64,000 bases of DNA from the NCBI RefSeq assembly GCF_026162365.1, contig NZ_JAOANW010000013.1, forward strand, positions 62,001-126,000, written 5' to 3'. This stretch comes from Nitratireductor luteus. Lineage in GTDB: Bacteria; Pseudomonadota; Alphaproteobacteria; Rhizobiales; Rhizobiaceae. Each line of letters starts with the position of its first letter. The stretch's first letter is position 1. This document shows, piece after piece, positions 18,801 to 31,994 of this stretch. The notes beneath the pieces were generated by a model. That model searched no databases. It had not been told where the DNA came from and saw only the letters and a list, made by a program, of their open reading frames with translations. Position numbers and translations under genes: made by a program.

Positions 18801-18933
18801 TGAGGCTGTGTGGCTTTCGCCTTCCGGTGGCAACCATACATTCGAGGTCAAGATGCTGGCCTCGGGTGCCGCGCCTGGACAAGGTTTCGATGTGTCCCAG
18901 AGGCGATTGCACGTCTACGCCCAGCGCCGCTGA
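15841..18933 (+). CDS. Central tail hub / host specificity protein, gpJ-like
   Basis: A 1030-aa protein. Residues 1-25 look like a signal sequence but belong to a Gly/Ala-rich hydrophobic segment (to about 75) resembling lambda gpI/gpJ membrane-interacting parts. The middle (about 80-640) is strand-rich, with KDHLWVWYKDGTQTV and the EATYPEPAEMWRTKDAPA region typical of phage hubs. Residues 690-790 form repeated helical heptads. The C-terminal part after 800 (ADKVFFANPANANQKVGII, LNGIKAEWADI) matches the C-terminal pattern of J-type proteins. Family knowledge: it forms the tip that contacts the outer-membrane receptor. Confidence 0.85.
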   Translation: MILRILITALALLLAATAHADAGPVVAAIGAIAAGIGKVIAAGGFLGALVKGALTLALQVGYSLIQRALQKDQEQLPTGVQIDVEIGDDAPVGTVVGSFATAGTRKYAGSWGRDGKTPNAYLTDVIEIGNLPAPGQPGIWVNGELCTILWGEPPTEQGYPVEEFRQNGKDHLWVWYKDGTQTVADPYLRAKFGNHPDRPWKETMIGRGCPHVIVTALVNRDIFRGQMEWLIEPPLLHFYDLRKDSTNGGSGAHRWHDQSTWEPTNNNAVVAYNIIRGIYYDNGAGYREWFYGGQDLAAFRLPASSWMAAANECDAQIPLEGGGQENQFRCGYEIRGDMEPLAVAQELLKGASARLAEVGGIFKVLVGAPGAAVYSFSDADTVITKGQSLRPFPSLGETYNGIEATYPEPAEMWRTKDAPARFSSVLEAEDGNRRLATGVNFAASPFAIQVQRLMKAMIEEERRFRIHSFFLPPEAWLLEPNDVVSWTSASNGYTNKKFLVVRIEGEPGMNQLVLLKEINPSDYGWNPATDQQPTSTGFLGPIHTPAQLATGFQVAPATFFDAAGKARRPSIEAFFAGDLDDVQFVRVVVRLAETQAIVYSTDEPYGEPGPDDQIRSIILNGVFLPDTLYEVTGQYIPYSGRITLPSAWLPVTTPDVRLGADDISVYLASLQQEVRDYLKDRWAEADEIFERMETLAANVGSANVDDIVDRKRHEKAIGRNAASITRESVLRVDGDEALAQEILTVQANVDDNAASIVQEQQARVTADDALASDITAVQAIADAGTAQGLMRWLAGAGPTGVTTRFTIQGKATAGDTYRTGGAYLDVTPTEAFWTFEADKVFFANPANANQKVGIIVFEDGVATLNGIKAEWADIVNVIIGWADIGTAVVNNFVATSANIGDLSVDTIKLAGSAINVSNSFYDGAPLHTDISFVTMASVTLNVPDDALVVRMLFSAVTSNLNHIPRINYYVDGLLLTATEVRYSPFYSEAVWLSPSGGNHTFEVKMLASGAAPGQGFDVSQRRLHVYAQRR

Positions 18934-18970
18934 ACCGTCGCGCCGCGTCTTCTATTGAGGTAAATCATCC

Positions 18971-20023
18971 ATGACCATCTACGCAACCGGCACGGTTTCA
19001 GTGACGGCGGGCTCCGCCATTGTCACCGGCGACGGCACCGCATGGGATCTGTTTCTGATCACGGGAGGGCTGTTCTCGTCGCAGGGCATCTCGATCCCCA
19101 TCCTCCAGGTGAACTCCGACACCGAGCTGGTGCTGGGATACAACTGGCCCGGCACGACGGACACCGGCCGGATCTATGCGATCGACCGCCAGTCCGCAGC
19201 GGCCGCGAGCGCCATTGAGGCGAACGACAGACTGGCGCAGATCGTCAAGCGCCTGGAGGCGCTGAGCTATGTCGACTTCGACGCGGTCGGCTCCCTCGCC
19301 GAGCGGGTCACTTACGACGGCGAGCCGCTGGGCTTCAAGTTCCTGCAGATTGACGTCGATCCCTTCGAGCTCTGGGTCAAGGCGTCCAACACCTCCGGAG
19401 ACTGGGCGGGCCCGAACGCTTACGGGCAGGGGCCGACAGGCGACACTGGACCGAAGGGCGATGCCGCTACTGTCACTGTCGGCTCCACCACGACGCTTGC
19501 TCCTGGCCAGCCAGCCAATGTCACGAACTCCGGAACGAATGCCGCTGCCGTTCTGGAGTTCGAGATTCCGCAGGGCGCGAAAGGCGATGCTGGCTGGGCG
19601 GCTGAGACAGAGCTTGTCGCGGACGGGGCCGCGCGCACCGTGGTGCGGATCGCCGACTTCATCGGCGGCGAAGGGACCAAGCCGCCAGGCATAGGGATGT
19701 ACATCGGGCCGGGCGGCTATGTCCTCACGGCCGCCGAGGCGATCAACGTTAAGGGCGCCGAGGGGCCGCAGGGTCCGGTCGGCGTCGGCTGGAAGGGAGC
19801 ATGGGATCCTGGCGCCACCTACGCTGTCGGCGACCTCGTCACCGATCCCGACGCACTGGACGACACTGCCGTCTGGATCGCCATAGCACCCAGCACGAAT
19901 GCGAAACCAAGGGACAGCGCTACCGAATGGTCGCTGTTTCCGGGCTCCTTCAACATTCCCCGCGACTACGGCCTCATCACCGAAGCCGCCACAGAAACTC
20001 GAGATTACGGGACAATCGCATGA
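18971..20023 (+). CDS. Phage tail fibre protein with collagen-like segments
   Basis: A 350-aa protein. Residues 1-70 form a strand-rich N-terminal attachment domain of a type common in tail fibres (TGTVSVTAGSAIVTGDGTAW). Two short collagen-like stretches (GPTGDTGPKGDA near 155 and GAEGPQGPVGVG near 260) suggest a trimeric rod. The motif WDPGATYAVGDLVT near residue 280 resembles carbohydrate-binding family 5/12-like modules. It ends overlapping the next gene (ATGA), so the three fibre genes form one coupled block. Likely role: adhesin that links the hub to distal receptor-binding proteins. Confidence 0.75.
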   Translation: MTIYATGTVSVTAGSAIVTGDGTAWDLFLITGGLFSSQGISIPILQVNSDTELVLGYNWPGTTDTGRIYAIDRQSAAAASAIEANDRLAQIVKRLEALSYVDFDAVGSLAERVTYDGEPLGFKFLQIDVDPFELWVKASNTSGDWAGPNAYGQGPTGDTGPKGDAATVTVGSTTTLAPGQPANVTNSGTNAAAVLEFEIPQGAKGDAGWAAETELVADGAARTVVRIADFIGGEGTKPPGIGMYIGPGGYVLTAAEAINVKGAEGPQGPVGVGWKGAWDPGATYAVGDLVTDPDALDDTAVWIAIAPSTNAKPRDSATEWSLFPGSFNIPRDYGLITEAATETRDYGTIA

Positions 20024-20658
20024 GCACCCAGATCCAGCGCCGCCGAGGCACGACAGCGCAGCACGCGACCTTCACCGGCGCGCTCGGCGAGATCACCATC
20101 GATACCGACAAGAATGTTCCCGTTGTTCACGACGGCGTGACGGCGGGCGGTCATCCTCTCGCACCGGAGGCGCTGGTGGCGGGCGGCACGCTAGGGCAGA
20201 TCCTTGCTGTTGGTGAGGGTGGCTCACGCGAGTGGGTCGACAACGCCGGATACACGGCTGAACCGATGATCCCGTCCATTTCGTTCGGAGGTGCCTCGGA
20301 TGGCATCACCTATGATGTTGGGGGGCAAACTGGCGGTGCTGTGCGAATCGGCGACATGGTGGTTGGAGGATTTCGCGTTAAGCTCACAAACAAGGGAACT
20401 TCGGTGGGAGATGCGGCCCTGGAGGGACTTCCGTTCCCAATTCACACGGACTTCATGGGAGTTGGAGGGGTACTGAGCATAGGCTTCTACTCGGGTATGG
20501 CTCTTCCAGGGACTGGCATCTCCGGGTTCTTCAGTAGCGGTACGGGCGTGTATCTTCGCAGCTTTGGCGCCGGTCAGGCAGCCACTCTGAACGATACCCA
20601 CTTCACAAACACGTCCACCATCATCGGCGGATATTCCTACATGACGGTGCCCGCATGA
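20020..20658 (+). CDS. Tail fibre protein with Mtd_N-like N-terminus
   Basis: A 212-aa protein. Residues 1-48 (QIRRRGT-like TTAQHATFTGALGEITI, then VVHDGVTAGGHPLA) match the N-terminal attachment domain of Bordetella phage Mtd and many tail fibres. The C-terminal half has the GFRVKLTNKGTSVGDAALEGL pattern of beta-rich fibre tips. ATG 20020 overlaps the previous stop. The frame extends further left but is not coding there. No C-type lectin variable region, template repeat or reverse transcriptase was seen, so this is not a diversity-generating system. Function: receptor binding, target unknown. Confidence 0.72.
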   Translation: MSTQIQRRRGTTAQHATFTGALGEITIDTDKNVPVVHDGVTAGGHPLAPEALVAGGTLGQILAVGEGGSREWVDNAGYTAEPMIPSISFGGASDGITYDVGGQTGGAVRIGDMVVGGFRVKLTNKGTSVGDAALEGLPFPIHTDFMGVGGVLSIGFYSGMALPGTGISGFFSSGTGVYLRSFGAGQAATLNDTHFTNTSTIIGGYSYMTVPA

Positions 20659-21749
20659 ACCTGGCAGAGACAGTATATGCCGGCTTCAGACCGATGATGA
20701 GCAACATTCAGAGTCCTCTGAACATCGATCTGCTTCCGGTCATTCCAGTCGACACGTACATGATCTACAGCGCGCCGGATATCGCGCTTCGTTTCAACAT
20801 GAACCAGTTCATCACGTTCTTCGACAACCAGTTCATCGCGATCTGGACGCAGGGGACCAACGAGGGTAACTCTGGAAACCACATCGTATGCTCCACGAGC
20901 CCAGACGGCATCACGTGGGCTCCAGTTCAGGACGTCACGCCTGTCGCTGAGACAGGATGGACCGAGGGCTCGGCCGGTCTCTGGGAGCGCGAGGGAGAGC
21001 TCTGGGCGCTCTACCGTCACGCAGAGGTTGGTACGAGGCCGGAGGGCCCCACCTACTACGGACCAAGTCTCGCTCTCCGGGGGAACCGCTGGAATGGCTC
21101 GGGCTGGGACCAGTATCAGGTCATATGTGACAACTGCCATCTGGACCTGCAGCCGATAAAGCTGCGGACAGGTAAGTGGTACGCAACGGGTCGAGACAAG
21201 CACTTCAGGACGCAGATGATCCTCGGGGACATCGGAGACTGGACACGCATCATTGTGCCGTCGCCGGAGGGAGTTCTTCTCAACGAGGCAACCATCCTGC
21301 CGATCGGCGACGGCAGCATCCTCAGCTATGAGTATCGCAATGAGATGGACATGAATCCTCGTGTGCTGCTTCGATCGTTCTCGACCAACGATGGTGGCAC
21401 TATCAGTCCACCTCTGCCTACCAACTTTCGGGATGCGGCAGGTCGGCGGGCGGTGATGAGGCTGTCGGACGGCCGGTACATCCTGTCCTCAAACGCCAGC
21501 GTTCCCTGGGGTCGCCGCAAGCTCATGCTCTCTGTTTCAGACGACGGGCTCACGTACAACAGAATGTACATCCTACGCGGCGAGGAGACGCACCCGAAGT
21601 GGGGGTGGGAGCCACCCGACCCGCCTCTCCACCGCGAGGGTTATCAGTATCCGCAGTTCCTGGAGAGGGACGGCTATCTCTGGGTGATCTACTCCCGCAA
21701 CAAGGAGGACATCGAGATCAGCCGTGTGGAGCTATCAGCATTTGAATAG
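20655..21749 (+). CDS. Sialidase-fold (BNR/Asp-box) tail protein
   Basis: A 364-aa protein translationally coupled to the fibre gene. Asp-box-like motifs are visible: STSPDGITW near residue 80 and SVSDDGLTY near 297, with related blades between. GYQYPQFLERDGYLWVIYSRNKEDI near the end is typical of the last blade of sialidase-like propellers. The first 30 residues probably mediate attachment. I infer a glycan-binding or glycan-cleaving tail component, possibly a depolymerase. True sialidase activity is not shown: the family's arginine triad was not assigned with certainty. A gene for an acyltransferase on the other strand follows within 2 bases. Confidence 0.68.
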   Translation: MNLAETVYAGFRPMMSNIQSPLNIDLLPVIPVDTYMIYSAPDIALRFNMNQFITFFDNQFIAIWTQGTNEGNSGNHIVCSTSPDGITWAPVQDVTPVAETGWTEGSAGLWEREGELWALYRHAEVGTRPEGPTYYGPSLALRGNRWNGSGWDQYQVICDNCHLDLQPIKLRTGKWYATGRDKHFRTQMILGDIGDWTRIIVPSPEGVLLNEATILPIGDGSILSYEYRNEMDMNPRVLLRSFSTNDGGTISPPLPTNFRDAAGRRAVMRLSDGRYILSSNASVPWGRRKLMLSVSDDGLTYNRMYILRGEETHPKWGWEPPDPPLHREGYQYPQFLERDGYLWVIYSRNKEDIEISRVELSAFE

Positions 21750-21751
21750 GG

Positions 21752-22891
21752 TCAGGAAGGGGATTTCGCCACTCTGGATCGATCCCTGCCTGCCTGAGCG
21801 CGGAGGTACGGAAACGCCGACTTGAAGACCTCTGGCAGCCGTCGCTCAAGAAGCGGCGACGTCAGGCCTGCAATCAAAACACAAGTGCCGACCGTCACGG
21901 CAAACGCCGCGGCTCCTATCGCTAGACTGGTGGGTGGGGCCAGAACCTGCCTGATCAACTCGATGACAATCAAGTGTTCGATATAGAGCGTGTAGGAGAT
22001 GTCCCCGAGCCACCTCATCCATCGCGGTACAGCCAGTTCAACTGTTTTGCTCGCGATCGCGAGTGCGGCAATGAGCAAGACAAAGCCAAAACCGATCGCG
22101 AGAGAGAGATAGAGGTAGAAGAACCAGGCGTTTGCGACGGCAAGACAGATCGCAATTACAGCGAGCGCGTAGGCCGTCATCCTGCTGGGCATCCGTAAAG
22201 GCGAAAAGAAGATGATGCCGGCAATCATTCCGCCGACGAATTCCCAAATGATCGGGTTCGTTGCCAGGAGCATATAGTCGAAGGGATAGGAAACCTCGCC
22301 AAAATTGGCTCGCGGGTTCCAAAGGGACGGTGCCTGAAAGAGCAAAGGTATCAATATAAGCGTGGTGATGAACCAAGCTGCCATGACTGTCCATCGATGG
22401 CGCCCGGCCAGCAATGCCAGCCCAAACACGAGGTAGAAGTAAACCTCGTAATTCAACGTCCATCCGACGCTCAGAGCCTGGCCGCTGAAAATTCCTTCTG
22501 AATTCACCGGAACAAAGGCTATGGACAAAAGGAATTGCCGAAGCATCTGACCGTCAAGCCAGAATGCGAAACCGCCGGCAATCATCATCGCTATCAGACT
22601 CACGGCGAAATAGGCCGGCCAGATGCGCAGGAACCTATTGCGCGCAAAGGCTGCCGCAGATTGTGGACCGTTCTGCCCGTAGGTCGTGTAGACCATAATG
22701 AAGCCGCTGATCACGAAGAACAGGTCGACACCACTCGCGAACGGCAAGAATATGTCGTTGGCCTCTATCGACATAGGCGAGCCGATAAAGATCCGGCGTG
22801 TGTGAGTTAATACAACTGCAAGAGCGGCTATGCCGCGCAGAGCCTGCAGCCAATCGAGTCGCGGTCGAGGATCGGTCGATAGGATTGTCAA
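21752..22891 (-). CDS. Acyltransferase 3 family membrane protein (O-acetyltransferase moron)
   Basis: A 379-aa polytopic membrane protein of the OafA/acyltransferase-3 family. The N-terminus has the family pattern LDWLQALRGIAALAVVLTHTR (shown in part) with the catalytic His in the VLTH context, and SGVDLFFVISGFIMVYT follows at about 52-69. About ten hydrophobic segments follow, with no extra SGNH domain. Family knowledge: such enzymes move acetyl groups onto lipopolysaccharide or exopolysaccharide sugars. It is the only leftward gene among the phage late genes and appears lower in GC. That is typical of a lysogenic-conversion gene with its own promoter near 22900-22960. It could mask the receptor from superinfecting phage. 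Confidence 0.85.
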   Translation of the reverse strand: MTILSTDPRPRLDWLQALRGIAALAVVLTHTRRIFIGSPMSIEANDIFLPFASGVDLFFVISGFIMVYTTYGQNGPQSAAAFARNRFLRIWPAYFAVSLIAMMIAGGFAFWLDGQMLRQFLLSIAFVPVNSEGIFSGQALSVGWTLNYEVYFYLVFGLALLAGRHRWTVMAAWFITTLILIPLLFQAPSLWNPRANFGEVSYPFDYMLLATNPIIWEFVGGMIAGIIFFSPLRMPSRMTAYALAVIAICLAVANAWFFYLYLSLAIGFGFVLLIAALAIASKTVELAVPRWMRWLGDISYTLYIEHLIVIELIRQVLAPPTSLAIGAAAFAVTVGTCVLIAGLTSPLLERRLPEVFKSAFPYLRAQAGRDRSRVAKSPS

Positions 22892-22968
22892 AGGTTCCCC
22901 CAGCCCTTCGACAGTAGCAGCAAGCTACTTCTGAGTGCAATCACACCGAAATCTGAAAGGACATCCCC

Positions 22969-24066
22969 ATGTTCGATGAAGCGACCGTTCGCGCGGTCGA
23001 GCGCATTGCTGTGCGCCTGAATGTAGAGCCGGCCGTGCTGCTGGCCGTGGTTGAGGTCGAGAGCGCCGGTAAGGTTTTCGCCGAGGTCGGCGGCCGGCAT
23101 GAGCCATTGATCCGCTTTGAGGGTCACTACTTCGATCGCCGGCTGACGGGCCGGAAGCGTGACCAGGCGCGGGCGGCAGGGCTGGCGCACCCGAAGGCCG
23201 GTGCGGTGAAAAACCCGAGGAGCCAGGCCGTTCGCTGGGAGTTGCTCAAACGTGCCGCCAGGATCGATGCGCAGGCGGCGTTCGAAAGTGCATCCTATGG
23301 CGTCGGCCAGGTGATGGGTGCCCATTGGCAGAAGCTCGGCTACGGCAACGTTTCCGGCCTGGTGGCGGAGGCTCGCAGCTCGGCGCTCGGGCAGATCGAA
23401 CTGATGGTGAAATACATCGTCAAGTTCGGCCTGGTCGACGAGCTGCAGCGCAAGGATTTCAGTGCCTTCGCTCGCGGCTACAACGGTCCGGCTTTCGCGC
23501 GCTACGGCTATCAAACGAAGATGGCGGCGGCTTATCGACGGATCTCCGGCAATGTTCCCGTCTCGGCCGCGACCGGCATGCTGCGCATGGGCTCGAAGGG
23601 CGCGCGGGTGCGCGAGCTGCAGGCGCTGCTTGTCCGCGCCGGTCATTCGGTGAAGGTGGACGGCGACTATGGCACCGCCACCAGGGACGCCGTGCGGGCC
23701 TTTCAGAAGGCGAACGGCCTCGATGTGGACGGTGTGGCCGGGCCGGAGACCATGCGAGCGCTGAGCACCTATCGCTTGGCGCCGGAGGAGCGGCCGGGGC
23801 AGGAGCGGGTGACCGATGTGACGGAGGTCAAGGATGCGGCCAAGGGGCTCGGGCCCCTTGCCATCGTCATGGCCGTGCGCGATCAGGTGGCCGACCTTGG
23901 CTACAATCTGTTCGGGCTTGAATTCGAGACGGCGCAGATGGTCGCCAACGGCCTGCTTACGGTCTCAGGCGTGATCGGCACCGGGCTCGCCGTCTACGGC
24001 CTCTATGGCTGGTGGAAGAGCCGCCAGACGGATGAGGGCGACATCGCGGCGGGGAGGGCCGCCTGA
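22969..24066 (+). CDS. Endolysin: N-acetylmuramidase plus peptidoglycan-binding domain and C-terminal TM
   Basis: A 365-aa lytic enzyme. Residues about 8-200 form a DUF3380-type N-acetylmuramidase domain, with Glu31 in VVEVESAGK as probable catalytic acid, and AFESASYGVGQVMGAHW and FARGYNGPAFARYGY as family motifs. A PG_binding_1 module spans about 205-262 (MLRMGSKGARVRELQALL, VDGDYGTATRDAV, GLDVDGVAGPET). After a linker, residues about 318-345 form a hydrophobic segment (NGLLTVSGVIGTGLAVYGLY) followed by WWKSRQ, that is, a C-terminal membrane anchor uncommon in soluble endolysins. No N-terminal signal peptide is present. It is followed, overlapping by one base, by a small membrane protein. 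Confidence 0.85.
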   Translation: MFDEATVRAVERIAVRLNVEPAVLLAVVEVESAGKVFAEVGGRHEPLIRFEGHYFDRRLTGRKRDQARAAGLAHPKAGAVKNPRSQAVRWELLKRAARIDAQAAFESASYGVGQVMGAHWQKLGYGNVSGLVAEARSSALGQIELMVKYIVKFGLVDELQRKDFSAFARGYNGPAFARYGYQTKMAAAYRRISGNVPVSAATGMLRMGSKGARVRELQALLVRAGHSVKVDGDYGTATRDAVRAFQKANGLDVDGVAGPETMRALSTYRLAPEERPGQERVTDVTEVKDAAKGLGPLAIVMAVRDQVADLGYNLFGLEFETAQMVANGLLTVSGVIGTGLAVYGLYGWWKSRQTDEGDIAAGRAA

Positions 24067-24212
24067 TGGCCGGCGGCAACGATACGGCCTTCTGGAGCGC
24101 GCTCATAGTTCGCATTGGTATCGGCCTCGCCTGGCGCATCGCGCTTCGCTTCTGGCCGGTGACGCTGCTTGGTCTCGGCGCCATCGCGTGGCTGATCAGG
24201 GGGTGCTGGTGA
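24066..24212 (+). CDS. Small membrane protein, holin-like candidate (48 aa)
   Basis: This ORF of 48 codons begins at the ATG that overlaps the endolysin stop and itself overlaps the next start (TGATG). It encodes two hydrophobic stretches, about residues 10-26 (WSALIVRIGIGLAWRI) and 31-45 (PVTLLGLGAIAWLI), separated by a basic ALRFW turn. Coupling on both sides and the lysis-cassette position support a real gene. A holin or antiholin role is inferred from size, topology and place only. Confidence 0.6.
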   Translation: MAGGNDTAFWSALIVRIGIGLAWRIALRFWPVTLLGLGAIAWLIRGCW

Positions 24213-24484
24213 TGCTTGCCTTCATCGCCAATGCGCTTGGCATCAACCGGGCTTTCGTCTGGATCGGCGCGGTCATGCTCGCGGCCGGCGTGATCTGGGG
24301 CGTCTATGAGTTCATCAAACACCAGGGCGCCGACGAGGTGCGCAGCGAAATCGAAAGGCAGAACAATGAAGCAGGTCTCAAAGGTGGGGAGGCTCGCCTG
24401 TCTCGCCGTGATTGTGTCGATGCTGGCGGGGTGTGGGATTTCCGCGCCGGCAAGTGCGCCGGGCCTGCGGCTGGCGATCGGTAA
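24212..24484 (+). CDS. Rz-like inner-membrane spanin (i-spanin)
   Basis: A 90-aa protein starting at an ATG that overlaps the previous stop. One membrane segment lies near residues 14-35 (AFVWIGAVMLAAGVIWGVYE) and is followed by a charged, probably helical periplasmic part (GADEVRSEIERQNNEAG). The C-terminal region has two cysteines (RRDCVDAGGVWDFRAGKC). N-in/C-out topology and an embedded lipoprotein gene in another frame are the hallmarks of Rz/Rz1 pairs. The periplasmic region is short for an i-spanin (lambda Rz is 153 aa), so the call is architectural. Confidence 0.65.
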   Translation: MLAFIANALGINRAFVWIGAVMLAAGVIWGVYEFIKHQGADEVRSEIERQNNEAGLKGGEARLSRRDCVDAGGVWDFRAGKCAGPAAGDR

Positions 24485-24641
24485 CAGCCTGCCGGGGGCG
24501 AAGGGCCTCGGGCTCTCCGACCAGGACCGCATCGACGACACCGTCGCCGGCGGCTGCGCCACCGGCGTCTACACCTCGCTCGAATGCGAGCGGCACACGA
24601 AGGCAAGCGCGGAGCGGCGCGCGGAACTTAGAGCGCGATAG
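24366..24641 (+). CDS. Rz1-like outer-membrane lipoprotein spanin, overlapping the Rz-like gene
   Basis: A 91-aa lipoprotein starting inside the Rz-like gene in the +1 frame, overlapping it by 119 bases. The signal peptide (MKQVSKVGRLACLAVIVSM) ends in a lipobox LAGC with Cys23 as the lipidation site. The mature part is about 68 residues with several Gly/Pro, two further Cys, and a basic end. Family knowledge: o-spanins bind i-spanins across the periplasm and fuse the membranes at the final lysis step. ATG 24366 is chosen because the lipoprotein signal begins there. Confidence 0.68.
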   Translation: MKQVSKVGRLACLAVIVSMLAGCGISAPASAPGLRLAIGNSLPGAKGLGLSDQDRIDDTVAGGCATGVYTSLECERHTKASAERRAELRAR

Positions 24642-24652
24642 GGGCACGGTGA

Positions 24653-25024
24653 ATGTCAGGCAGCACAGAAGCACAGGTCGCGCGGCTCGACGAGCGCTTT
24701 AACTCGCTGGAGAAGATGCTTTCGAGCTTCACCACCGAAATCCGGCTGGAGCTGAAATCGGCGCGGGACAGCCGCAAGGCTTTTCACGAATCTCACGAGG
24801 CAACAGCCAAGGACATTCTGCTGATCAGCCATCGCCTCGAGACGCTGGAAAAGGAAGTGACGGCCATCCGGCCGACCAGCGACGAATATCTCAAGATGCG
24901 CGAGCAGGTGCGCGGCGCCGGCACGCTGGGCCGGTGGGTGTGGAGGATCGGCATCGGCGTGATCACGGTCGCCGGCTGGATCGTCGGCGCCTACACCTAT
25001 CTGACCGGCCGGCCGCCGCCTTGA
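24653..25024 (+). CDS. DUF1515-like phage membrane protein
   Basis: A 123-aa protein. Residues 5-80 form a coiled coil (AQVARLDERFNSLEKMLSSF, SHRLETLEKEVTAIRP). Residues about 93-112 form one membrane segment (VWRIGIGVITVAGWIVGAYT), then a Pro-rich end. This layout and wording match the rhizobial DUF1515 group found in phage lysis regions. A holin or lysis-accessory role is possible. It is the last gene of the rightward lysis cassette. Confidence 0.65.
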   Translation: MSGSTEAQVARLDERFNSLEKMLSSFTTEIRLELKSARDSRKAFHESHEATAKDILLISHRLETLEKEVTAIRPTSDEYLKMREQVRGAGTLGRWVWRIGIGVITVAGWIVGAYTYLTGRPPP

Positions 25025-25048
25025 ATGCGATGGTGTGACCCACGGGAG

Positions 25049-25072
25049 GATCTGGAGCGGCCACTCCAGATC
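25049..25072 (+). promoter_or_regulatory. Inverted repeat with GATC at both ends, upstream of the methylase
   Basis: GATCTGGAG (25049-25057) and CTCCAGATC (25064-25072) are exact complements around a 6-base spacer. Each arm begins or ends with GATC, the site commonly modified by Dam-type enzymes. No T-run follows, so it is not a simple terminator. It could be an operator by which the downstream methylase gene is autoregulated, or just an RNA hairpin in its leader. Confidence 0.3.
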
Positions 25073-25183
25073 GGCGGGAATAGCTGTACACCAAACCCGC
25101 CCAGCATGCCGACAGAACAGATGCCGCACCCGTGGCCCTCGCGGGCCGGGTGAAGATGCGGCGATGATTCTGAAGGAATCCTT

Positions 25184-26020
25184 ATGCAGGAGAATTTTTG
25201 CTTTCAGTCGGTGGAGCCGGTGTCGCCACCGGCCAGTTACCTTGGAGGAAAGAAACAACTTGCCGGCCGTATTTCATCGTTGTTGGAACAAATTCCGCAT
25301 TCGGTCTATGCCGAACCATTCGTTGGCATGGGCGGTGTCTTTTTCCGCCGGCGTTTGGCGCCACGATCAGAAGTCGTCAATGACCGATCAGGGGATGTGG
25401 CGACGCTGTTTCGCATCCTTCAACGCCACTATCCGCAGTTTATGGAGACACTAAAGTTTCAGATTACGTCTCGCCGGGAATTCGAACGGCTCGCTGCCTG
25501 CGATCCGACGACGCTCACGGATCTGGAGCGTGCGGCGAGATTTCTCTATCTCCAGCGACTGGCATTCGGGGGGAAGGTGAGGGGGCGGTCGTTCGGCGTC
25601 GACGTAACAGGCGGCGGAAGGTTCAACCTGACACGTCTGAGTTCCATCCTCGATGCGGTGCATGAACGGTTGGCCGGCGTAGTGATCGAGAATCTCGACT
25701 GGCTGGACTTCATTGTTCGATACGACCGCCCGGAGACGTTGTTCTACCTCGACCCACCATATTTCGGGAATGAGTGCGACTACGGAAAGGACGCGTTCAA
25801 ACGTGAAGACTTCTTGTCGATTGCGGCGCACCTCGCCTCCATATCGGGCCGATTTGTTTTGTCGCTTAACGATCGACCAGAGGTGAGGGAAATATTTGGC
25901 GCATTCAAAATTGTCTCGGTTCCGGTCACCTATACGGTGTCCGGCGGCAAAGGCAGCGACGTAAGGGAGGTAATCGTCATGGACAGGAAAGAGCCAGTGG
26001 TTGCAAACATGCCTGATTGA
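25184..26020 (+). CDS. D12-class N6-adenine DNA methyltransferase (Dam-like)
   Basis: A 278-aa enzyme. An AdoMet-binding segment of the Dam type lies at 19-28 (YLGGKKQLAG). AEPFVGMGGVFF (43-54) is a variant of the family's FxGxG motif. The catalytic motif DPPY is at 190-193. The length fits Dam (about 270-280 aa). Family knowledge: it transfers a methyl group to adenine N6, often in GATC, though specificity is not proven here. Phages use such enzymes against host restriction. An AAGGAA ribosome site precedes ATG 25184 and a strong terminator follows at 26056. Confidence 0.9.
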   Translation: MQENFCFQSVEPVSPPASYLGGKKQLAGRISSLLEQIPHSVYAEPFVGMGGVFFRRRLAPRSEVVNDRSGDVATLFRILQRHYPQFMETLKFQITSRREFERLAACDPTTLTDLERAARFLYLQRLAFGGKVRGRSFGVDVTGGGRFNLTRLSSILDAVHERLAGVVIENLDWLDFIVRYDRPETLFYLDPPYFGNECDYGKDAFKREDFLSIAAHLASISGRFVLSLNDRPEVREIFGAFKIVSVPVTYTVSGGKGSDVREVIVMDRKEPVVANMPD

Positions 26021-26055
26021 ATCGAGCCGATTCCACATTGAACATTGGATAGCTG

Positions 26056-26089
26056 CCCCGCTGGCCCTTCATGGCTGGCGGGGTTTTTT
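26056..26089 (+). terminator. Intrinsic terminator after the methylase gene
   Basis: CCCCGCTGGCC pairs with GGCTGGCGGGG (two G-U pairs) around CTTCAT, followed by six T. Nearly the same hairpin recurs at 26423-26456. Confidence 0.85.
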
Positions 26090-26095
26090 GTCGTT

Positions 26096-26332
26096 CTAGT
26101 TTTCTTCGCCGATCCCGTTGCTCAACAGCTGCAGAAAGGCACCGTGTGCGGACTGTTGCAGTGCATTGGTTGGGATCGTGATGAGGAAATCCTCAATGGT
26201 CATGCCATCAACAGGATCGGGCACGCAGCCTGGCGGCGCGAAGGCGATGTAGAGATGCAGCTCGTCGAGGTCGAATGCGACCTTCCACGCGCCGGTAGCG
26301 TCTTCCGCAAGAGTTCTCATCTTGATTGGCAT
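26096..26332 (-). CDS. Small conserved-type protein, paralogue of 30659-30901
   Basis: About 78 aa. A perfect AAGGAGG lies 8 bases before the ATG at 26332, and this site decides the start against the upstream ATG at 26341, which it overlaps. The N-terminal half (MRTLAEDATGAWKVAF then LHLYIAFAP) closely resembles a second protein encoded at 30659-30901 (IRKLAEDETGAWVVV, IYLGFAP), and both end in a Gln-rich amphipathic helix. Function unknown. It is the last gene of a leftward series that begins at 28287. Confidence 0.6.
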   Translation of the reverse strand: MPIKMRTLAEDATGAWKVAFDLDELHLYIAFAPPGCVPDPVDGMTIEDFLITIPTNALQQSAHGAFLQLLSNGIGEEN

Positions 26333-26422
26333 CGGCAACATCCTCCTTTTTCATGGACGATGTTGGCGCGAGGTTTCAATGAGTGCCATCACCAGATTCC
26401 GGTATTGACGACACAATGCTCT

Positions 26423-26456
26423 GCCCCGCTGGCCTTTACGGCTGGCGGGGCTTTTT
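26423..26456 (+). terminator. Second copy of the GC-rich terminator hairpin
   Basis: GCCCCGCTGGCC pairs with GGCTGGCGGGGC (two G-U pairs) with loop TTTAC, then five T on the + strand. No rightward gene lies immediately before it, so it looks like a duplicate of the terminator at 26056 or a guard against readthrough. Confidence 0.7.
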
Positions 26457-26467
26457 ACGTTTTGGGC

Positions 26468-26758
26468 CTACTGCTGATGCGGTGGGGCTTCGTGGTGGGT
26501 GAACACCATCTTGATGCCAACATCCACCTGCGACCGCAAGTGATCGGACAGTGCAAGCGCCGCGTCCTCATCGGGCACGTGCCGCAGGATGACTTCCATA
26601 GTGAGTTCCACAATGGCCGCTACCTGGCCGATATCGGATAGCATCTCGATCTGGCGGCCGGCCTTGTCCACTACCTTCCTGATCTTCGGTAGCTCTGGCC
26701 GTAGCTCTTCGTAGATCGCTGCGTCCTGTTCGGGCGTTAGTCGCGGTTTATGGCTCAT
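26468..26758 (-). CDS. Hypothetical helical protein downstream of the SRAP gene
   Basis: A 96-aa, mostly helical, acidic protein (LTPEQDAAIYEELRPELPKI, IVELTMEVILRHVPDED) with a His-rich end. Its start overlaps the stop of the SRAP gene by 4 bases (ATGA), so the two are translationally coupled. No family recognised. Co-expression with an abasic-site sensor suggests a DNA-metabolism context, but nothing in the sequence proves it. Confidence 0.6.
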   Translation of the reverse strand: MSHKPRLTPEQDAAIYEELRPELPKIRKVVDKAGRQIEMLSDIGQVAAIVELTMEVILRHVPDEDAALALSDHLRSQVDVGIKMVFTHHEAPPHQQ

Positions 26759-27501
26759 AGCAAGCTCCCCTGAGCCTCTTCCGGCATCTCCGGCTTGTCG
26801 ACGATGACGAGCTGATCGTCGGGGATGGGGCGTTGCAGCTCCTTTGCCTCATCCCATGGTGCGGTTAGCCATGTTTCCACTTCCTCCTGGGTGGCCAGGA
26901 TCACCGGCATCGCCCCGTGGATCGGCGCGACGATGCCGTTAGGCTCACAGGTGAGGAAGGCATACAGGTCCGCCGTGATCCACCCTTCTTTGATCTTGCG
27001 CACGCCCGACCATTCCGGCAGCCACAGACCGGCGAAGAAGGCGAGCGGCCGATCCTCGCCCAGGGCGAACCAGGCATTGGGAACCGGGCCGCCATTCGCG
27101 CTTGCATGATCGGGCTCGGCGAAGCTGGTGAACGGGACGACGCAACGGTTTTCCACGCCCAACCATCGCTTCCAATGCCTGCTGTCCGTCTTGCGGACAT
27201 TGGTCGTGCCGCGATCTGGCTCCATCTTGAGCAGGTCGTCGAAATCGACTTCCTTGCCCTTCGCCCGGAGCTTGTCGGCCCGCTTCTTCGCTGCGTTGAA
27301 TATGGCCTGCTTGGAAGATGGCAGGCCCCAACGGGCGCGGACAAGCTCGCGCTCGCCGTCCAACGCATTTCGGAGGATTGGCGCCGGCTGATCGGGATAG
27401 ACCTGTATCGACGGCTCCAGATTGCCCGCCAGGTCGCGCAGGGCGCGCGTGAAAGCAATGATCTCTCTCTGGGCCGAGGTGAGGTTATAGAGATTGCACA
27501 T
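26755..27501 (-). CDS. SRAP family protein (YedK/HMCES-like abasic-site protein)
   Basis: A 248-aa SOS response-associated peptidase-fold protein. The catalytic Cys2 follows the initiator Met (MCNLYNLT). Asn101 lies in GTTNVRKTDSRHW, Glu129 in FTSFAEP, and His195 in PIHGAMPVIL, where most relatives have HxRMPVIL. Family knowledge: Cys2 forms a thiazolidine crosslink with abasic sites in single-stranded DNA, protecting them, and the protein then releases itself. It lies in a leftward operon of small unknown genes next to the prophage; phages often carry SRAP genes. All catalytic residues are present, so it should be active. Confidence 0.92.
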   Translation of the reverse strand: MCNLYNLTSAQREIIAFTRALRDLAGNLEPSIQVYPDQPAPILRNALDGERELVRARWGLPSSKQAIFNAAKKRADKLRAKGKEVDFDDLLKMEPDRGTTNVRKTDSRHWKRWLGVENRCVVPFTSFAEPDHASANGGPVPNAWFALGEDRPLAFFAGLWLPEWSGVRKIKEGWITADLYAFLTCEPNGIVAPIHGAMPVILATQEEVETWLTAPWDEAKELQRPIPDDQLVIVDKPEMPEEAQGSLL

Positions 27502-27533
27502 GGCGGCAGATTAACGCGGAGCCGGCATCTCGG

Positions 27534-27794
27534 CTAGTAGATGCCGCGCTGGCGATTCTCCAGAAACTGCGGATTGACCTTGATGCTGACCTGCCGGCCG
27601 CCGCATTTCGTACACCGCAGTTTCGGCTCGAGACCATCAGCCCCGCAGCTGTGATAGGGGCCGAGCTTCCAGGCAAGATCCATCAGATCCAGGTCGTTCG
27701 AATGCTGGCACTTGGAATTGCAACAATGCGCGGTCAGCGAAAAGTGGCTGACTATCAGCTCGTCCAATGTGGTGTAGGAGACAGACCGGGCCAT
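27534..27794 (-). CDS. Small zinc-ribbon-type protein
   Basis: An 86-aa protein with Cys pairs suited to metal binding: CCNSKCQHS near residues 24-32 and LRCTKCGG near 59-66, separated by DLMDLAWKLGPYHSCG. The C-terminus is basic. The ATG directly follows the stop of the upstream leftward gene. It resembles small rhizobial prophage-associated proteins of unknown function. DNA or RNA binding is plausible from the zinc-ribbon look but unproven. Confidence 0.6.
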   Translation of the reverse strand: MARSVSYTTLDELIVSHFSLTAHCCNSKCQHSNDLDLMDLAWKLGPYHSCGADGLEPKLRCTKCGGRQVSIKVNPQFLENRQRGIY

Positions 27795-28022
27795 CTACTT
27801 CCTGCCGATCCCGGCCCGCACATAGCCGAAACTGACCGCGGCCTCCAGCGCCTGCACCCGTCCTTCCAGATATTCATTGGCGCCCAGCAGCGCCTTGACC
27901 GCCTCGCGCGCATCGCCGCCGCAGGCCTGGATGATCTCGTCGGCCGCCACCTGATTGGGATCGTCGGCGCACTGGCTCATGTCGTGGGCGGTGGCAAGGG
28001 GATGGTCAGCGCGGATCGTCAT
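27795..28022 (-). CDS. Small hypothetical protein
   Basis: 75 aa, with a clear GGAGG ribosome site upstream of its start at 28022. Predicted helical, with DEIIQACGGDAREAVKALLG and NEYLEGRVQALEAAVSF, the latter a short coiled coil. The stop abuts the ATG of the zinc-ribbon gene, so both are in one transcript. No function recognised. Confidence 0.6.
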   Translation of the reverse strand: MTIRADHPLATAHDMSQCADDPNQVAADEIIQACGGDAREAVKALLGANEYLEGRVQALEAAVSFGYVRAGIGRK

Positions 28023-28155
28023 TGGAAGCCTCCGTTAGGAAGCTTATCCTATGCAAAATCCGGCGAACGAGTCCAGCGTTTGTTCTATTTATGTTCTGGT
28101 TTCACAGACGGCGTTATTGAGGCGTGTGGGGCATAAGGTGCGTGGGCCACGGTCC

Positions 28156-28287
28156 CTAGATGCCGTCCTGAAGGTCGCGCGCTTTCGCCCGCCAGACGCG
28201 GCGCTCGTCCTCGTCGGCCGTGGACCAGTCCTTGCCGGTCTCGACTTCGAATATGAGTTGGGCGGATGCGTCTATACTGTCGGCCAT
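28156..28287 (-). CDS. Very small conserved-looking protein (43 aa)
   Basis: Forty-three codons from ATG at 28287 to TAG at 28156-28158, preceded by a strong GGGGGAAG ribosome site. The product is acidic with a pattern of small phage/rhizobial proteins: MADSIDASAQLIFEV, then KDWSTADEDERRVWRAKAR. Longer ORFs on either strand here have implausible composition and overlap this one. It is probably the first gene of the leftward operon running to 26096. Function unknown. Confidence 0.55.
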   Translation of the reverse strand: MADSIDASAQLIFEVETGKDWSTADEDERRVWRAKARDLQDGI

Positions 28288-28612
28288 TCGTCTTCCCCCG
28301 CAAAGTTGGCGACAATATCAGGGCGCGCAAAGATTGGTAGAGGCTGTAAAGTGACACGCTTTTTTGCCCTGGGCTCATCATAACGCATTGAAAATAAAGG
28401 GTCGGATGCTGGCGCTAGCAGTTATTTTACTCTTTTTGCCGTAGAGGCCTGCCAGATTGCGGTGACGTAGGTCGAGAAGCGGACACGAAAATGAGAAAGC
28501 TGACGTTCACGACCGGTCGATTGTCAGCAATAGACACACACTTTAGTGTTCATTTTACGTCCAATAAATCCGCCTGGAATCAACGAGCTTTCAAGATCGA
28601 TGGAGAAAATGT
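28288..28612. other. Non-coding interval upstream of the leftward operon and the DUF1508 gene
   Basis: 325 bases with no convincing gene. The two overlapping ORFs that reach into it from the left have arginine/serine-rich shadow composition. It looks A/T-richer than the prophage, especially 28381-28600, and should contain the divergent promoters for the operon at 28287 and the gene at 28613. It is also a candidate location for the right prophage end. No tRNA, repeat or terminator seen. Confidence 0.4.
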
Positions 28613-28784
28613 GTGGCTCACAGGTACGAAATATACAGAGATAAAGCAGGCGAATTCCGTGTGAGGTTCAAATACAATTCTGAGGTCATGTGGGCTTCTG
28701 AAGGATATTCAAGCAAGGTCTCAGCTCAAAATCTAATCGATAGTCTCAAGAGTAATGTTCCGAGCGCGCCTGTCGAGGATTTGA

Positions 28785-28788
28785 CTAG
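28785..28788. repeat. Left target-site duplication CTAG
   Basis: CTAG directly precedes the left inverted repeat and recurs at 30102-30105. CTAG/TA-type duplications are typical of the IS427 group of the IS5 family. Confidence 0.9.
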
Positions 28789-28823
28789 GCCCTGTTGACA
28801 AAAGTTGGCCCCAGCATACACGA

Positions 28824-29228
28824 CTATTCACCCCAGCCTGAGATTACGGCATCGGCCTCAAGCTCGACAAGCCATTCAGGGTTCACAAATCGATCTATGG
28901 CCATGATTGTATCCACCGGCCGAACATCCCTGAAGTATTCCCTCCGGACATCGATGGCGGCTTTCCAGTTGTCGATGTCCGTGAGTATCACTCGTGTTCG
29001 TACGACATCATGAAGGCCGGAGCCGGCTTGTTCGAGGGCGGCCTTGATAATCTCAATACATTGACGGGTTTGGGCCGCAACATCATCCACGCCTATGGTC
29101 TTGCCGTCTGGTCCGACTGGTGCGGTTCCGCCGATTGAGATGAACGGGCCAACCCTGACCGCACGGCTAAATCCGACAATCGCCTCCATTGGATTTCCAT
29201 TTGAAATCAGCTCTCTGTCAAACTTCAT
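28824..29228 (-). CDS. RidA/YjgF/UK114 family protein (IS passenger)
   Basis: A 134-aa protein of the Rid superfamily. It shows FSRAVRVGPFISIGGTAPVG near the N-terminus, then IIKAALEQAGSGLHDVVRTR, where the Arg of VVRTRVILTDIDNW aligns with the Arg that holds the imine substrate carboxylate in RidA. The C-terminal NPEWLVELEADAVI has the usual Glu. Family knowledge: RidA hydrolyses reactive enamine/imine intermediates; divergent members vary. The gene lies wholly inside the IS, about 20 bp from the left inverted repeat and divergent from the transposase. It looks intact, so the element may spread it. Confidence 0.88.
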   Translation of the reverse strand: MKFDRELISNGNPMEAIVGFSRAVRVGPFISIGGTAPVGPDGKTIGVDDVAAQTRQCIEIIKAALEQAGSGLHDVVRTRVILTDIDNWKAAIDVRREYFRDVRPVDTIMAIDRFVNPEWLVELEADAVISGWGE

Positions 29229-29268
29229 GACCTGCTCTCCCGACGAGTTCGGGGTCGATAGTAATTCA

Positions 29269-29290
29269 ACGATGACAAATCAGTCATCGT
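29269..29290. promoter_or_regulatory. Inverted repeat between RidA and transposase genes of the IS
   Basis: ACGATGAC (29269-29276) and GTCATCGT (29283-29290) are exact complements with a 6-base A/T-rich spacer. It lies in the 80-bp divergent promoter interval, so it may be an operator controlling the passenger, the transposase, or both. Confidence 0.4.
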
Positions 29291-29308
29291 CTGATTCAAG
29301 AATGCTTT

Positions 29309-30105
29309 TTGCGGGAGGCATTCTTGGCGCGTGGGGATCTGACAGACGAGGAATGGGCCATCATCGAACCGCTTCTACCGCCTGAACGGGGGCGTTGGGC
29401 GCGGCCAGCCCAGGACAACCGGCGTTATCTCAACGGTATGCTGCATGTGCTGCGGGTGGGCTGCCCATGGCGGGACATGCACGAGCGCTATGGCAGGTGG
29501 AACTCGGTCTATGTCCGATTCCGCAGATGGGCCGAGCAAGACGTTTGGGATGCGCTTCTGGAAACGCTTGTCGAACTGGGTTTGACCGACGATTGGCAAC
29601 ACATTGTCGACAGCACATCCGTCCGGGGCCATAGCCAGGCAGCCGGCGCAAAAGGGGGACTCATAAGGAGGGTTTTGGTCGAAGCCGCGGCGGCTTCACG
29701 AGCAAAATCCACGCGCGCGCAGACGGCCAGGGACGCCCTCTCGGCTTTGTCGTGACCGGCGGCGAAGCCTCCGACTACAACGCCTTCGAGCCCTTGCTAA
29801 ATATGCCAGTTGGCCGACCGCGCCTGATGCTCGCCGACAGGGGCTATGACGGCGACGCCATCCGCGAAGCGTTGCTTCTTCAGGGTATCCTGCCGGTCAT
29901 TCCGCCCAGGTCCAATCGGAGGGCTCCCACCAACTGCGATTATCGCGCCTACAAGGACAGAAACCGGATCGAGCGCATGTTCAACCGCATCAAGCAGTTC
30001 CGGCGCATCGCAACCCGTTACGACAAGACCGCTAAATCTTTCCTCGGCTTCCTATGCCTAGCCGCCGTGAGGATCTGGCTCCCGTCTTTTGTCAACAGGG
30101 CCTAG
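29309..30105 (+). CDS. IS5-family transposase, two overlapping frames (29309-29755 and 29752-30105)
   Basis: The first frame (148 aa) holds LTDEEWAIIEPLLPPERGR and VRVGCPWRDMHERYG-like segments and the first catalytic Asp (HIVDSTSVRGH). The second continues with FGRSRGGFTSKIHARADGQG, the second Asp (MLADRGYDGD) and the Glu (RNRIERMFNRIKQFRR). The switch is -1 and probably occurs at the A4G5 run 29650-29658, where the -1 reading gives AGAKRGTHKEGFGRS, as in related intact transposases. A programmed shift is usual in the family, but a mutation is possible. The start is uncertain (TTG 29309). The stop TAG lies in the right CTAG target duplication, outside the element. Confidence 0.88.
30102..30105. 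repeat. Right target-site duplication CTAG
   Basis: Second copy of the CTAG found at 28785-28788. Its TAG also serves as stop codon of the transposase second frame. Confidence 0.9.
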
Positions 30106-30658
30106 CGAGATAGAAGATCTCAAGCGCAGGCTTGAAAATGCTCCTGTTCCGGCGGCTGATCGTATCGTCAGTCTGGACCACAATTCCGCAGCGTTCAAAG
30201 AATTTAAAGCCGCCCTCCAAGAACTGGAAGAAAGCGTTCGAACTTCCAACGATTTGGGTGACATGTCTTCCGAAGAGGTGGAGATTGCCAGGTCTGAAAT
30301 TTTGCAGATCGCCTCAGAAAAAGAGCTACAATGGATGCGGCCTGCTCATATTTGGCAAGTTGCCAAAAGCACGCTCCTATGGATTTCCGAACAAGCAGCA
30401 GGTGCAGTCATCGGAGCACTCGCTCTTGCTGCCCTGGCAGCACTGGCGGGCCTACTTGGTATAGTTATTTAATGCACGTTGAACGGCGAACTCGGGGTCG
30501 AACTTTGCCGCTCCTGAAAGACGCAATAGCGCTCGCCCGCTCGCCCTGCGCATGAATGATTGGTCACCGGCTATATAGGTCGACAAGGCTGCCTTAAGGG
30601 CAACGCTATGCCCAAAAAGGCAAATTATCGTGGCATCCGACAGAGGCGACGGCGCTCA

Positions 30659-30901
30659 CTACGGTGCTTTCTGTCTTTCAATCAGGCCGGGCAACATTTC
30701 CAAGAAGTATTGCTGCGCCTGTCGCTGCAAATCATCTGCTGGCGGCCCAATGATCAAGCATTCGGGGCGCAGCAGCCACGCAGCTGCATGGGCTACCGAT
30801 GACGGTGCAAACCCAAGATAGATGCTGGGATCGTCGTCAGCGGAAACCACCACCCATGCGCCGGTTTCATCTTCAGCAAGTTTCCGAATCTCAACTACCA
30901 A
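30659..30901 (-). CDS. Small protein, paralogue of 26096-26332
   Basis: An 80-aa protein. IRKLAEDETGAWVVV then IYLGFAP near the N-terminus, and DLQRQAQQYFLEMLPGLI near the end, mirror the protein encoded at 26096-26332 on the same strand. No function recognised. Two divergent copies 4.5 kb apart on either side of the IS-hit gene suggest that the accessory region contains related cassettes. There is no evident terminator to its left. Confidence 0.55.
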   Translation of the reverse strand: MVVEIRKLAEDETGAWVVVSADDDPSIYLGFAPSSVAHAAAWLLRPECLIIGPPADDLQRQAQQYFLEMLPGLIERQKAP

Positions 30902-31163
30902 GGCCGCGTCTCCTTTGTGGTTCCAGAGGGAGAGTGGCTAGATCCGCGGTTGAGGCCCATGGGTAGATCTATCCATTGACAGCGGTCGCGCACGCAAGCG
31001 GCCATTTTCTCCTTTGATATCAATTGGTGCGGTCAGGAGCGGTTGCATCTCCACCGTACCTGGCTTCCACTACAACTCCCGGGAAACCGTCCAGCTTCGT
31101 TCTGCTTTCCAAACTGCGACTGTTCGTGCTTAACTGGTGCTCTCGCAACGAGAGGGGGAAACA

Positions 31164-31556
31164 ATGGCGCGTCGCAAAATGGGGGACATTCCCGAGAAAG
31201 AGAGTCCTGCGCCGGGTGGCCAGACTGAAGCCAAAGTCGATCAGAACGAAGTATCGCTTCTTGATGTGCCCGAGTTCTTCGGCGACAAAGTTGCACTGAT
31301 TACCGATAGCACAAGCTTCACGGTATTTCTCTCTCGACAGGTGCCCGTTCTTGTTAGAAGCCAAAATGCTGGCACATCAAGGCCAGCTGTGACGCTACAT
31401 ATGAGTCCGCAAACCGCGAAGGACCTAGCACTTCTTCTGATCGATCAAATAGACCAGCATGAGAGGGAGTGGGGCCAGATCGAAACCGCCTTCACGAGAC
31501 GCAGAACTCAGGCGGAGGCTCCAAAAAAAGCTCGACGCAAAACGGAAACAAACTGA
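31164..31556 (+). CDS. DUF3467-like hypothetical protein, first gene of a three-gene operon
   Basis: A 130-aa protein. The Met at 31164 follows an AGGGGGAAAC ribosome site and is preferred over one at 31137. A central strand region ([20 protein letters not shown]) is followed by PAVTLHMSPQTAKDLALLLI then DQIDQHEREWG. The last part resembles the SPQ-A-K-L-L-x-N-I-x-x-Y-E-x-x-F-G pattern of DUF3467 proteins, so the family is tentative. The C-terminus is Lys/Arg-rich. Two coupled genes follow without gaps. Confidence 0.5.
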   Translation: MARRKMGDIPEKESPAPGGQTEAKVDQNEVSLLDVPEFFGDKVALITDSTSFTVFLSRQVPVLVRSQNAGTSRPAVTLHMSPQTAKDLALLLIDQIDQHEREWGQIETAFTRRRTQAEAPKKARRKTETN

Positions 31557-31994
31557 TTGGCACGCGTTAAACCAGAAGCGGCCGACACAGGGAAGGTTCC
31601 GGATACTGAGATTGATCCGGAGCCGTCGCTGGTGGTTACGTTTGCATCCACAGACGTAAACCAAAGTGAGCGGTACGCACTTGTCCAGACAAGGGCTCGT
31701 GACGATGTGTCGGAGGTCAGAATGTATGAGGAGACGATCGACCACGTGAAGGCAGAGCACTCCGCCCAGTTCCCAGTGGAATTGCCGTCAATGATCAACG
31801 CGGTAAGTGGCACCCTCAAGGAGCCAACCCGGACGAGTGATAGCTACAACAATTCCGTTGAATATATCAATGACAACACGATCAATCGCAAGGGTCATCC
31901 GTTAAGGGTTTACGTGCAGAAGATCTCCGGAACAACGTCAGGTTACATGACAACTTTTTTCTTTGGTACTGTGCAGGACGATGACGATGAGTAG
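31557..31994 (+). CDS. Hypothetical protein with TTG start, middle gene of the operon
   Basis: A 145-aa acidic protein beginning with TTG immediately after the preceding TGA, which implies translational coupling. Strand-rich sequence: EPSLVVTFASTDVNQSERYALV, then a polar stretch with NSVEYINDNTINRKG, and RVYVQKISGTTSGYMTTFFF before an Asp-rich end. No family recognised. Its end overlaps the next gene by 8 bases. Confidence 0.5.
   Translation: MARVKPEAADTGKVPDTEIDPEPSLVVTFASTDVNQSERYALVQTRARDDVSEVRMYEETIDHVKAEHSAQFPVELPSMINAVSGTLKEPTRTSDSYNNSVEYINDNTINRKGHPLRVYVQKISGTTSGYMTTFFFGTVQDDDDE

Follow-up and report, generated by a model that had tools for sequence, protein, structure and literature searches.

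The window, meaning the whole stretch of 64,000 nucleotides from Nitratireductor luteus that was analyzed, contains an IS5-family element which is very probably a transporter IS, in which a gene of the Rid family lies between transposase and left terminal repeat and moves as part of the element. This element (hereafter the Rid element) occupies positions 28788-30102 of the window, is 1,315 bp long, and ends in perfect 17-bp terminal inverted repeats, the outer left repeat (28788..28804, plus strand) being the exact complement of the right one (30086..30102, minus strand). When 28700-30200 was searched for inverted repeats, a pair of 20 nt with 100% complementarity was returned (28785-28804 / 30086-30105) together with only one other pair (17 nt, 82%); the former appears as 20 nt and not 17 because the bases flanking the Rid element match as well. 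TA dinucleotides adjoin the repeats at 28786..28787 and 30103..30104. The right flank is TAA in two related elements, L006 and L003, and among the 28 loci of the group with both repeats located (the window's counted), 23 have TA on either side, from which we conclude that the target duplication is a 2-bp TA, the repeat 17 bp and the element 1,315 bp. The preliminary description of this DNA had proposed perfect inverted repeats with a target duplication, which stands, but had read the duplication as CTAG, the repeats as 16 bp and the element as 1,313 bp; the CTAG reading is a natural one because the Rid element starts with G and ends with C. With these small corrections the observation is confirmed. 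The Rid element is present as one copy in its own genome, which thus gives no sign of recent transposition.

The transposase is encoded in two frames on the plus strand, both open in the window. The first (29309..29755) matches DUF4096 (E=9.8e-27) and contains, by eye, the first Asp of the DDE triad, and the second (29752..30105) matches DDE_Tnp_1_2 (E=8.6e-16) and contains, again by eye, the second Asp and the Glu. An A4G5 run at 29650..29658 on the same strand is, judged from the nucleotides and the translated frames, a putative -1 frameshift site joining them. Each half passes the NCBIfam IS5 model NF033580 alone (125 and 115.7 bits, cut-off 110), in agreement with the earlier assignment of an IS5-family DDE transposase to this element. 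From its size, frames and TA duplication the element is probably of the IS427-like group.

The passenger is a complete frame of 134 aa on the minus strand (28824..29228), which runs divergently from the transposase and stops about 20 bp from the left repeat. It matches PF01042 (E=1.6e-23) at 83.5 bits against a gathering score of 27.3, which places it in the Rid superfamily, and the earlier claim of an intact, divergent Rid-family gene near one end thus holds. The 80 bp between the two divergent genes (29229..29308) are common to the window, L003, L006 and L083, and contain a dyad, ACGATGAC-AAATCA-GTCATCGT (29269..29290), which is a possible operator; it is imperfectly kept in the relatives, where variants occur. 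Consensus scans, which may fit this organism poorly, returned no sigma-70-like promoter and no terminator within the Rid element.

The element splits a DUF1508 gene on the plus strand (28613..30472, in pieces 28613-28787 and 30105-30472; PF07411 in the left piece). Joining the flanks without the Rid element gives a single open frame of 180 aa. Two relatives span the junction at residue 58: a Shinella sequence that matches residues 1-123 with 47% identity, and a sequence of a same-family genome (G127) that matches residues 37-171 with 31%. They cover 123 and 135 of the 180 residues, respectively, and no match outside the own genome covers 80% of the joined frame. The exact restoration of the interrupted gene, as proposed before, is therefore upheld, the empty site being the same under the TA reading. 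Since the genes to the left, within 15841-27501, include those for a phage tail fibre, an endolysin and a DNA methyltransferase, the Rid element sits in a prophage. Within positions 15841-31994 of the window, the Rid element lies in the right part of this prophage.

The arrangement is not confined to the window. Among the 80 best of 114 Rid relatives in genome contigs, the repeat adjoins Rid at two loci, both in metagenome-assembled genomes (L003 of Rhizobiaceae, L006 of Hyphomicrobiales), each with 2 mismatches of 20. It also lies beside Rid, with 1 mismatch of 20, at loci L083 and L084, which represent one plasmid site shared by two strains of Roseibium aggregatum, so that the outer left repeat adjoins Rid with at most 2 mismatches in 20 at each of these loci. 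For comparison, 13 of 1,560 random 200-nt stretches drawn from the same loci, which themselves contain this IS, had a match with at most 3 mismatches. The remaining Rid loci compared had at least 7 mismatches or too little sequence, apart from copies of the window locus and L091, which is apparently the L003 locus again. L006 is 1,319 bp long; its two repeats and Rid are present, and its transposase is almost complete, with a single in-frame stop. L003 measures 768 bp and likewise has both repeats and Rid, while its transposase is internally deleted and has lost its middle. At L083/L084 the left repeat and Rid are kept, stops or deletions abound in the transposase, and a right repeat was not found. 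The flanks of the window element, L006, L003 and L083 (up to 3 kb) have no similarity to each other at E<=1e-3, and the unit is thus found at different sites, with both repeats in the window, L006 and L003 and with the left repeat in L083/L084. Probable remains of the junction were also detected upstream of Rid at L093 and L007 (z of about 7 and 5-6 against 60 shuffles of each, the next best locus scoring 3.9); a transposase was found near neither gene.

These copies bear directly on the idea that Rid was trapped once between two repeats, by chance, with no history as a moving unit. That the element is single in its own genome, and that L003 and L006 are the only loci with the repeat beside Rid among the best 80 of 114 relatives, would suit such an origin, but the architecture and the junction recur at unrelated sites in different genomes, and L006 and L003 largely refute a one-off assembly, which we consider barely credible. 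The search for further copies that the preliminary description had proposed thus yielded two more genomes with both repeats and Rid (L006 and L003), and decayed copies elsewhere. The point on which that description had made a stable unit depend gave a mixed outcome: some relatives, L106 for one, lack Rid and have their left repeat next to the transposase, and yet the association of Rid with the IS is not a one-off.

The Rid-less relatives also indicate how the gene came to be where it is. In L106 and L129, whose transposase parts share 86% and 81% DNA identity with that of the window, the left repeat is followed by GGATTCCCAAATCAG or a similar sequence and then by the transposase, and matches to Rid-less elements start at element position 488 or later. 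Since the left repeat adjoins the transposase in these elements, Rid was evidently added just inside the left repeat. Alignment with the Rid-less left ends finds homology from about CAAATCAG (window position 29276) rightward, and to the left of 29276 the Rid elements have Rid with the outer repeat beyond it. Rid and its upstream region were thus placed between repeat and transposase at a cost of about 8 bp, as judged by eye. That the window, L003, L006 and L083 have the Rid/transposase junction in common favors a single capture, although the trees are less clean. In identity the window transposase is closer to the Rid-less L106 (86%) than to the Rid-bearing L006 (81%). The transposase tree joins the window and L006 (95/92), places the four Rid-bearing rows together with the Rid-less L106 and L129 in one supported set of six, and groups L106 and L129 with the Roseibium copies; as drawn, it has two changes of Rid state, one of them forced by well-supported branches. 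In the Rid DNA tree (88 rows), the window, L003 and L006 form a clade (100/96), which is joined by L007 and one further row (nearest path L004) at 99/93; the Roseibium pair is kept apart from the other three by well-supported branches, again with two changes. A single Rid clade of all five copies was not rejected (p-AU 0.31). Copies may have exchanged their ends, or Rid may have been captured a second time.

A second capture would mean that the Roseibium form arose independently of the form found in the window, L003 and L006. The well-supported separation in the DNA tree argues for it, as do the grouping of the Roseibium Rid in the protein tree with L121, a Rid without the repeat (100/89), and the distance of 125 nt between left repeat and Rid in Roseibium compared to 22-25 nt elsewhere. 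Nevertheless, with a junction from Rid to the transposase start that is recognizably common to both forms, and with one clade not rejected at the p-AU given above, we regard independent captures as rather unlikely. Another origin would be a composite one from two ISs, with the outer left repeat as what is left of a second copy that was otherwise deleted. The sequence just inside the outer left repeat is indeed unlike the usual left end (GGATTCCC), but when four elements were scored against right-end and left-end profiles the fit was no better than chance (p 0.07-0.72), and we judge this origin to be improbable. A derivation of the outer left repeat from the right end of another copy, suggested by eye, was dropped after the right-end profile scored at chance level (p 0.07-0.55). 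There is also one transposase between the repeats, and the left outer end has neither a right-end nor a left-end signature, which is not the make-up of a composite transposon.

The fate of the two genes differs. The Rid frame is open in L006, L003, L083, L084 and L007, and the transposase is broken or gone in the copies outside the window; of the five decayed forms, four have an intact Rid, the exception being L093, where it is broken and split over frames. Between copies borne by elements at different sites, the dN/dS of Rid is 0.02-0.08 in five of nine pairs, the other four being saturated, and between the two Roseibium strains, which differ little, it is 0.11. For the pairs of the window with L006, L003, L083 and L084, Rid has values of 0-0.06 compared to 0.12-0.21 for the transposase; these are Nei-Gojobori estimates, which are rough at such distances, and the comparison with L003 covers 80 transposase codons only. 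Taken together, the low dN/dS and the open Rid frames beside decayed transposases suggest that hosts keep the cargo and retain it after the transposase has been lost. Part of the purifying selection could stem from chromosomal phases of the gene.

As to what the cargo does, the preliminary description had called it a metabolite-damage enzyme. In the sense of imine hydrolysis this is not supported. Asp106 of the Rid cargo aligns with the catalytic arginine (E. coli position 105) of the structures 2dyy and 2csl, and 93% of 101 aligned Rid rows, the window's counted, have Asp there; in these relatives the Asp belongs to a conserved PVDT motif, and Glu residues are kept. According to the portion of PMC4433059 available, imine hydrolysis needs the arginine, and Rid subfamilies that lack it probably act otherwise; the same arginine criterion is applied in the corresponding portion of PMC5619798. 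The Asp makes the cargo unlikely to be an imine hydrolase. Judged from the alignment, it is probably not an amino-acid-imine hydrolase, and would be expected to act on small molecules, as an enzyme or a binder. A canonical RidA imine deaminase, which would spare the host damage of the 2-aminoacrylate type, finds support in the PF01042 match above cut-off and in a score of 63.5 bits against the RidA model TIGR00004. That score, however, lies below the model's cut-off of 106.25 bits, the arginine is replaced by Asp, and the genome encodes six PF01042 proteins besides the cargo (seven with it), of which two or more have the arginine (L197, L202), so that there is no evident gap for the cargo to fill. 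We therefore consider a canonical RidA very improbable. The best solved relative of the cargo is PDB 3i7t (E=3.9e-26), deposited as a 'putative uncharacterized protein', which also lacks the arginine and has Thr at that position where the cargo has Asp. It is presumably Rv2704 of Mycobacterium tuberculosis, and we know of no link between it and an IS.

The neighborhoods of the Rid relatives gave no functional clue. The commonest neighbor family occurs at 9 of 80 loci and in varying positions, which indicates that no neighborhood is conserved. A Pfam scan of 69 neighbors, drawn from 103 listed (without the IS proteins of L003/L006, loci from L047 onward and a few others), gave at most 4 members per family and no transposase family among the 25 families shown of 67, and gene neighborhood was dropped as a guide to function. 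The relatives L004-L082 outside the IS-borne copies, which have no IS repeat, stand in mostly unrelated neighborhoods, largely in Rhizobiales and Rhodobacterales, and the Rid protein tree mixes families among them. One of these, in Roseisalinus (L068, 5001-5520), has an IS5-family transposase remnant directly downstream in an arrangement that differs from that in the window. Viral relatives, which were not informative, comprise one in IMG/VR (L156, seemingly identical with the L068 stretch) and seven distant ones in phage records. PADLOC matched the Rid domain to the C-terminal part of PD-T4-2_B (2.7e-10), which indicates that this candidate defence protein holds a Rid-like domain; the single match was taken as a shared domain only, and a defence role was set aside.

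Rid is not the only gene carried by this IS group. We surveyed 54 distinct transposase loci, which are the matches most like the window's IS and not a random sample, and located both repeats with at most 2 mismatches at 28 of them. Eighteen of these measure 848-852 bp, as was expected for elements of 0.8-0.9 kb with the transposase only, one is 897 bp, and nine are 1,022-1,533 bp long, three of the nine (the window, L006 and L205) having entered the set on account of their cargo. Of the other six, L213 and L221 have weaker left repeats and no TA, and may be false. The group includes at least four further single-gene cargos, unrelated to each other and placed at either end. A 133-aa gene lies between left repeat and transposase in a 1,318-bp element (L159 361-1678; also L228 13228-14089, and L231 and L232 at about 1426-1893); it is found with transposase remains in Rhizobium sp. 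CB3171, and with a poor repeat and without transposase on two Sinorhizobium plasmids. In a 1,533-bp element (L110 1461-2993) a 212-aa gene lies between transposase and right repeat; L205 2456-3679 and L204 2455-3228 are of the same type. A relic of this type on R. etli p42d, near nodD1/nolE, has both repeats and a partly deleted cargo, and in R. binae the cargo and one repeat are kept and the transposase is reduced to a fragment. The interval between transposase and right repeat holds a gene for a TPR-like protein of about 104 aa in two genomes (L166 1453-2690, 1,238 bp; L230 608-1836); L166 has no TA on the left, and in an Agrobacterium plasmid this type has both repeats with TA on the left only. 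Finally, a 149-aa gene stands beside the transposase or a repeat in several rhizobial genomes (L173 1002-1984; L227 3420-3755; L228 24385-24927; L229 6969-7514), on the right in L173, where the right repeat only was located, beside transposase remains in CB3171 and beside the repeat in R. leguminosarum. Further candidates are a 127-aa frame at the right repeat, the only one located, of L170 (1058-2071), a 143-aa frame in another extended copy of CB3171, some 1.4 kb long (L228 16463-17859), and a relic on the left in L089, one of the nine longer elements.

For the L110, L166, L159 and L173 types, other records thus have the cargo next to this IS or to its repeat; neither repeat nor transposase was found beside the L110-type gene at L206, the L159-type genes at L227 and L229, or one of the two L173-type genes at L227. 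No similarity was detected among the six cargo proteins compared (best E 0.92), and their Pfam matches are confined to Rid and, below threshold, a TPR. At L227, L228 and L229, single Rhizobium replicons have cargos of different types only tens of kb apart, and the annotated stretches of L227 and L229 abound in small genes and further ISs. With recurring cargos whose proteins are mutually dissimilar, the Rid element looks like a member of a clan that takes up single genes just inside one end. Whether the clan serves generally as a shuttle for single genes is nearly an even question, which we answer, by a small margin, with a tentative no: small cargos (the Rid, L159, L110, L166 and L173 types, and perhaps more) would have been captured repeatedly just inside one terminal repeat, moved as elements of 1.2-1.5 kb on plasmids and prophages, and domesticated upon decay of the transposase.

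For the Rid element itself, the course of events may be pictured as follows. A Rid-family gene would have been taken up between the left terminal repeat and the transposase; the transposase, made by -1 frameshifting, would act on the two 17-bp repeats, and with the outer left repeat lying beyond Rid the whole 1.3 kb would move as one unit, and the 80 bp between the divergent genes would drive the expression of Rid. Following insertion, the transposase would be killed by mutation and Rid kept by selection, so that the Rid element would serve as a delivery vehicle whose cargo becomes domesticated. ISs are usually treated as transposase-only and their remains are annotated as junk, but here an alphaproteobacterial IS group carries single unrelated genes, and signs of selection on Rid outlast the transposase. 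This would explain in a simple way, open to checking, how small orphan genes come to spread and become established, and it draws attention to a Rid subfamily that is both mobilized and retained. If the clan reading is true, this IS clan could account for the scattered occurrence of many small orphan genes in rhizobia and related bacteria.

Compared to known systems, the cargo shares with the Rid4-Rid7 subfamilies, as far as the portion of PMC4433059 available describes them, membership of the Rid family, the kept Glu and the absence of the arginine, and has as its own the Asp at that position within a conserved PVDT motif. With the IS5 family (NF033580) the element shares the model passed by its transposase halves, the two frames and the TA duplication; it is some 470 bp longer than most Rid-less elements of its group (about 849 bp) and has Rid immediately inside the left repeat. 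The literature matches listed, as judged by titles and abstract starts, include no IS5-family transporter IS with a Rid cargo, and neither the Rid element nor a multi-cargo clan is described among them; transporter ISs as such are known. In the excerpted Ralstonia IS survey (PMC7371123), IS5-family elements measure 850-1,200 nt and passenger genes are named for Tn3-family transposons only. ISs with passenger genes unrelated to transposition are termed transporter ISs in the accessible part of PMC3129680, and the Rid element resembles these as described there in being IS-sized, with one transposase and an unrelated passenger inside its terminal repeats. It is a unit bounded by repeats and a target duplication, with a passenger unrelated to transposition, that is found at different sites.
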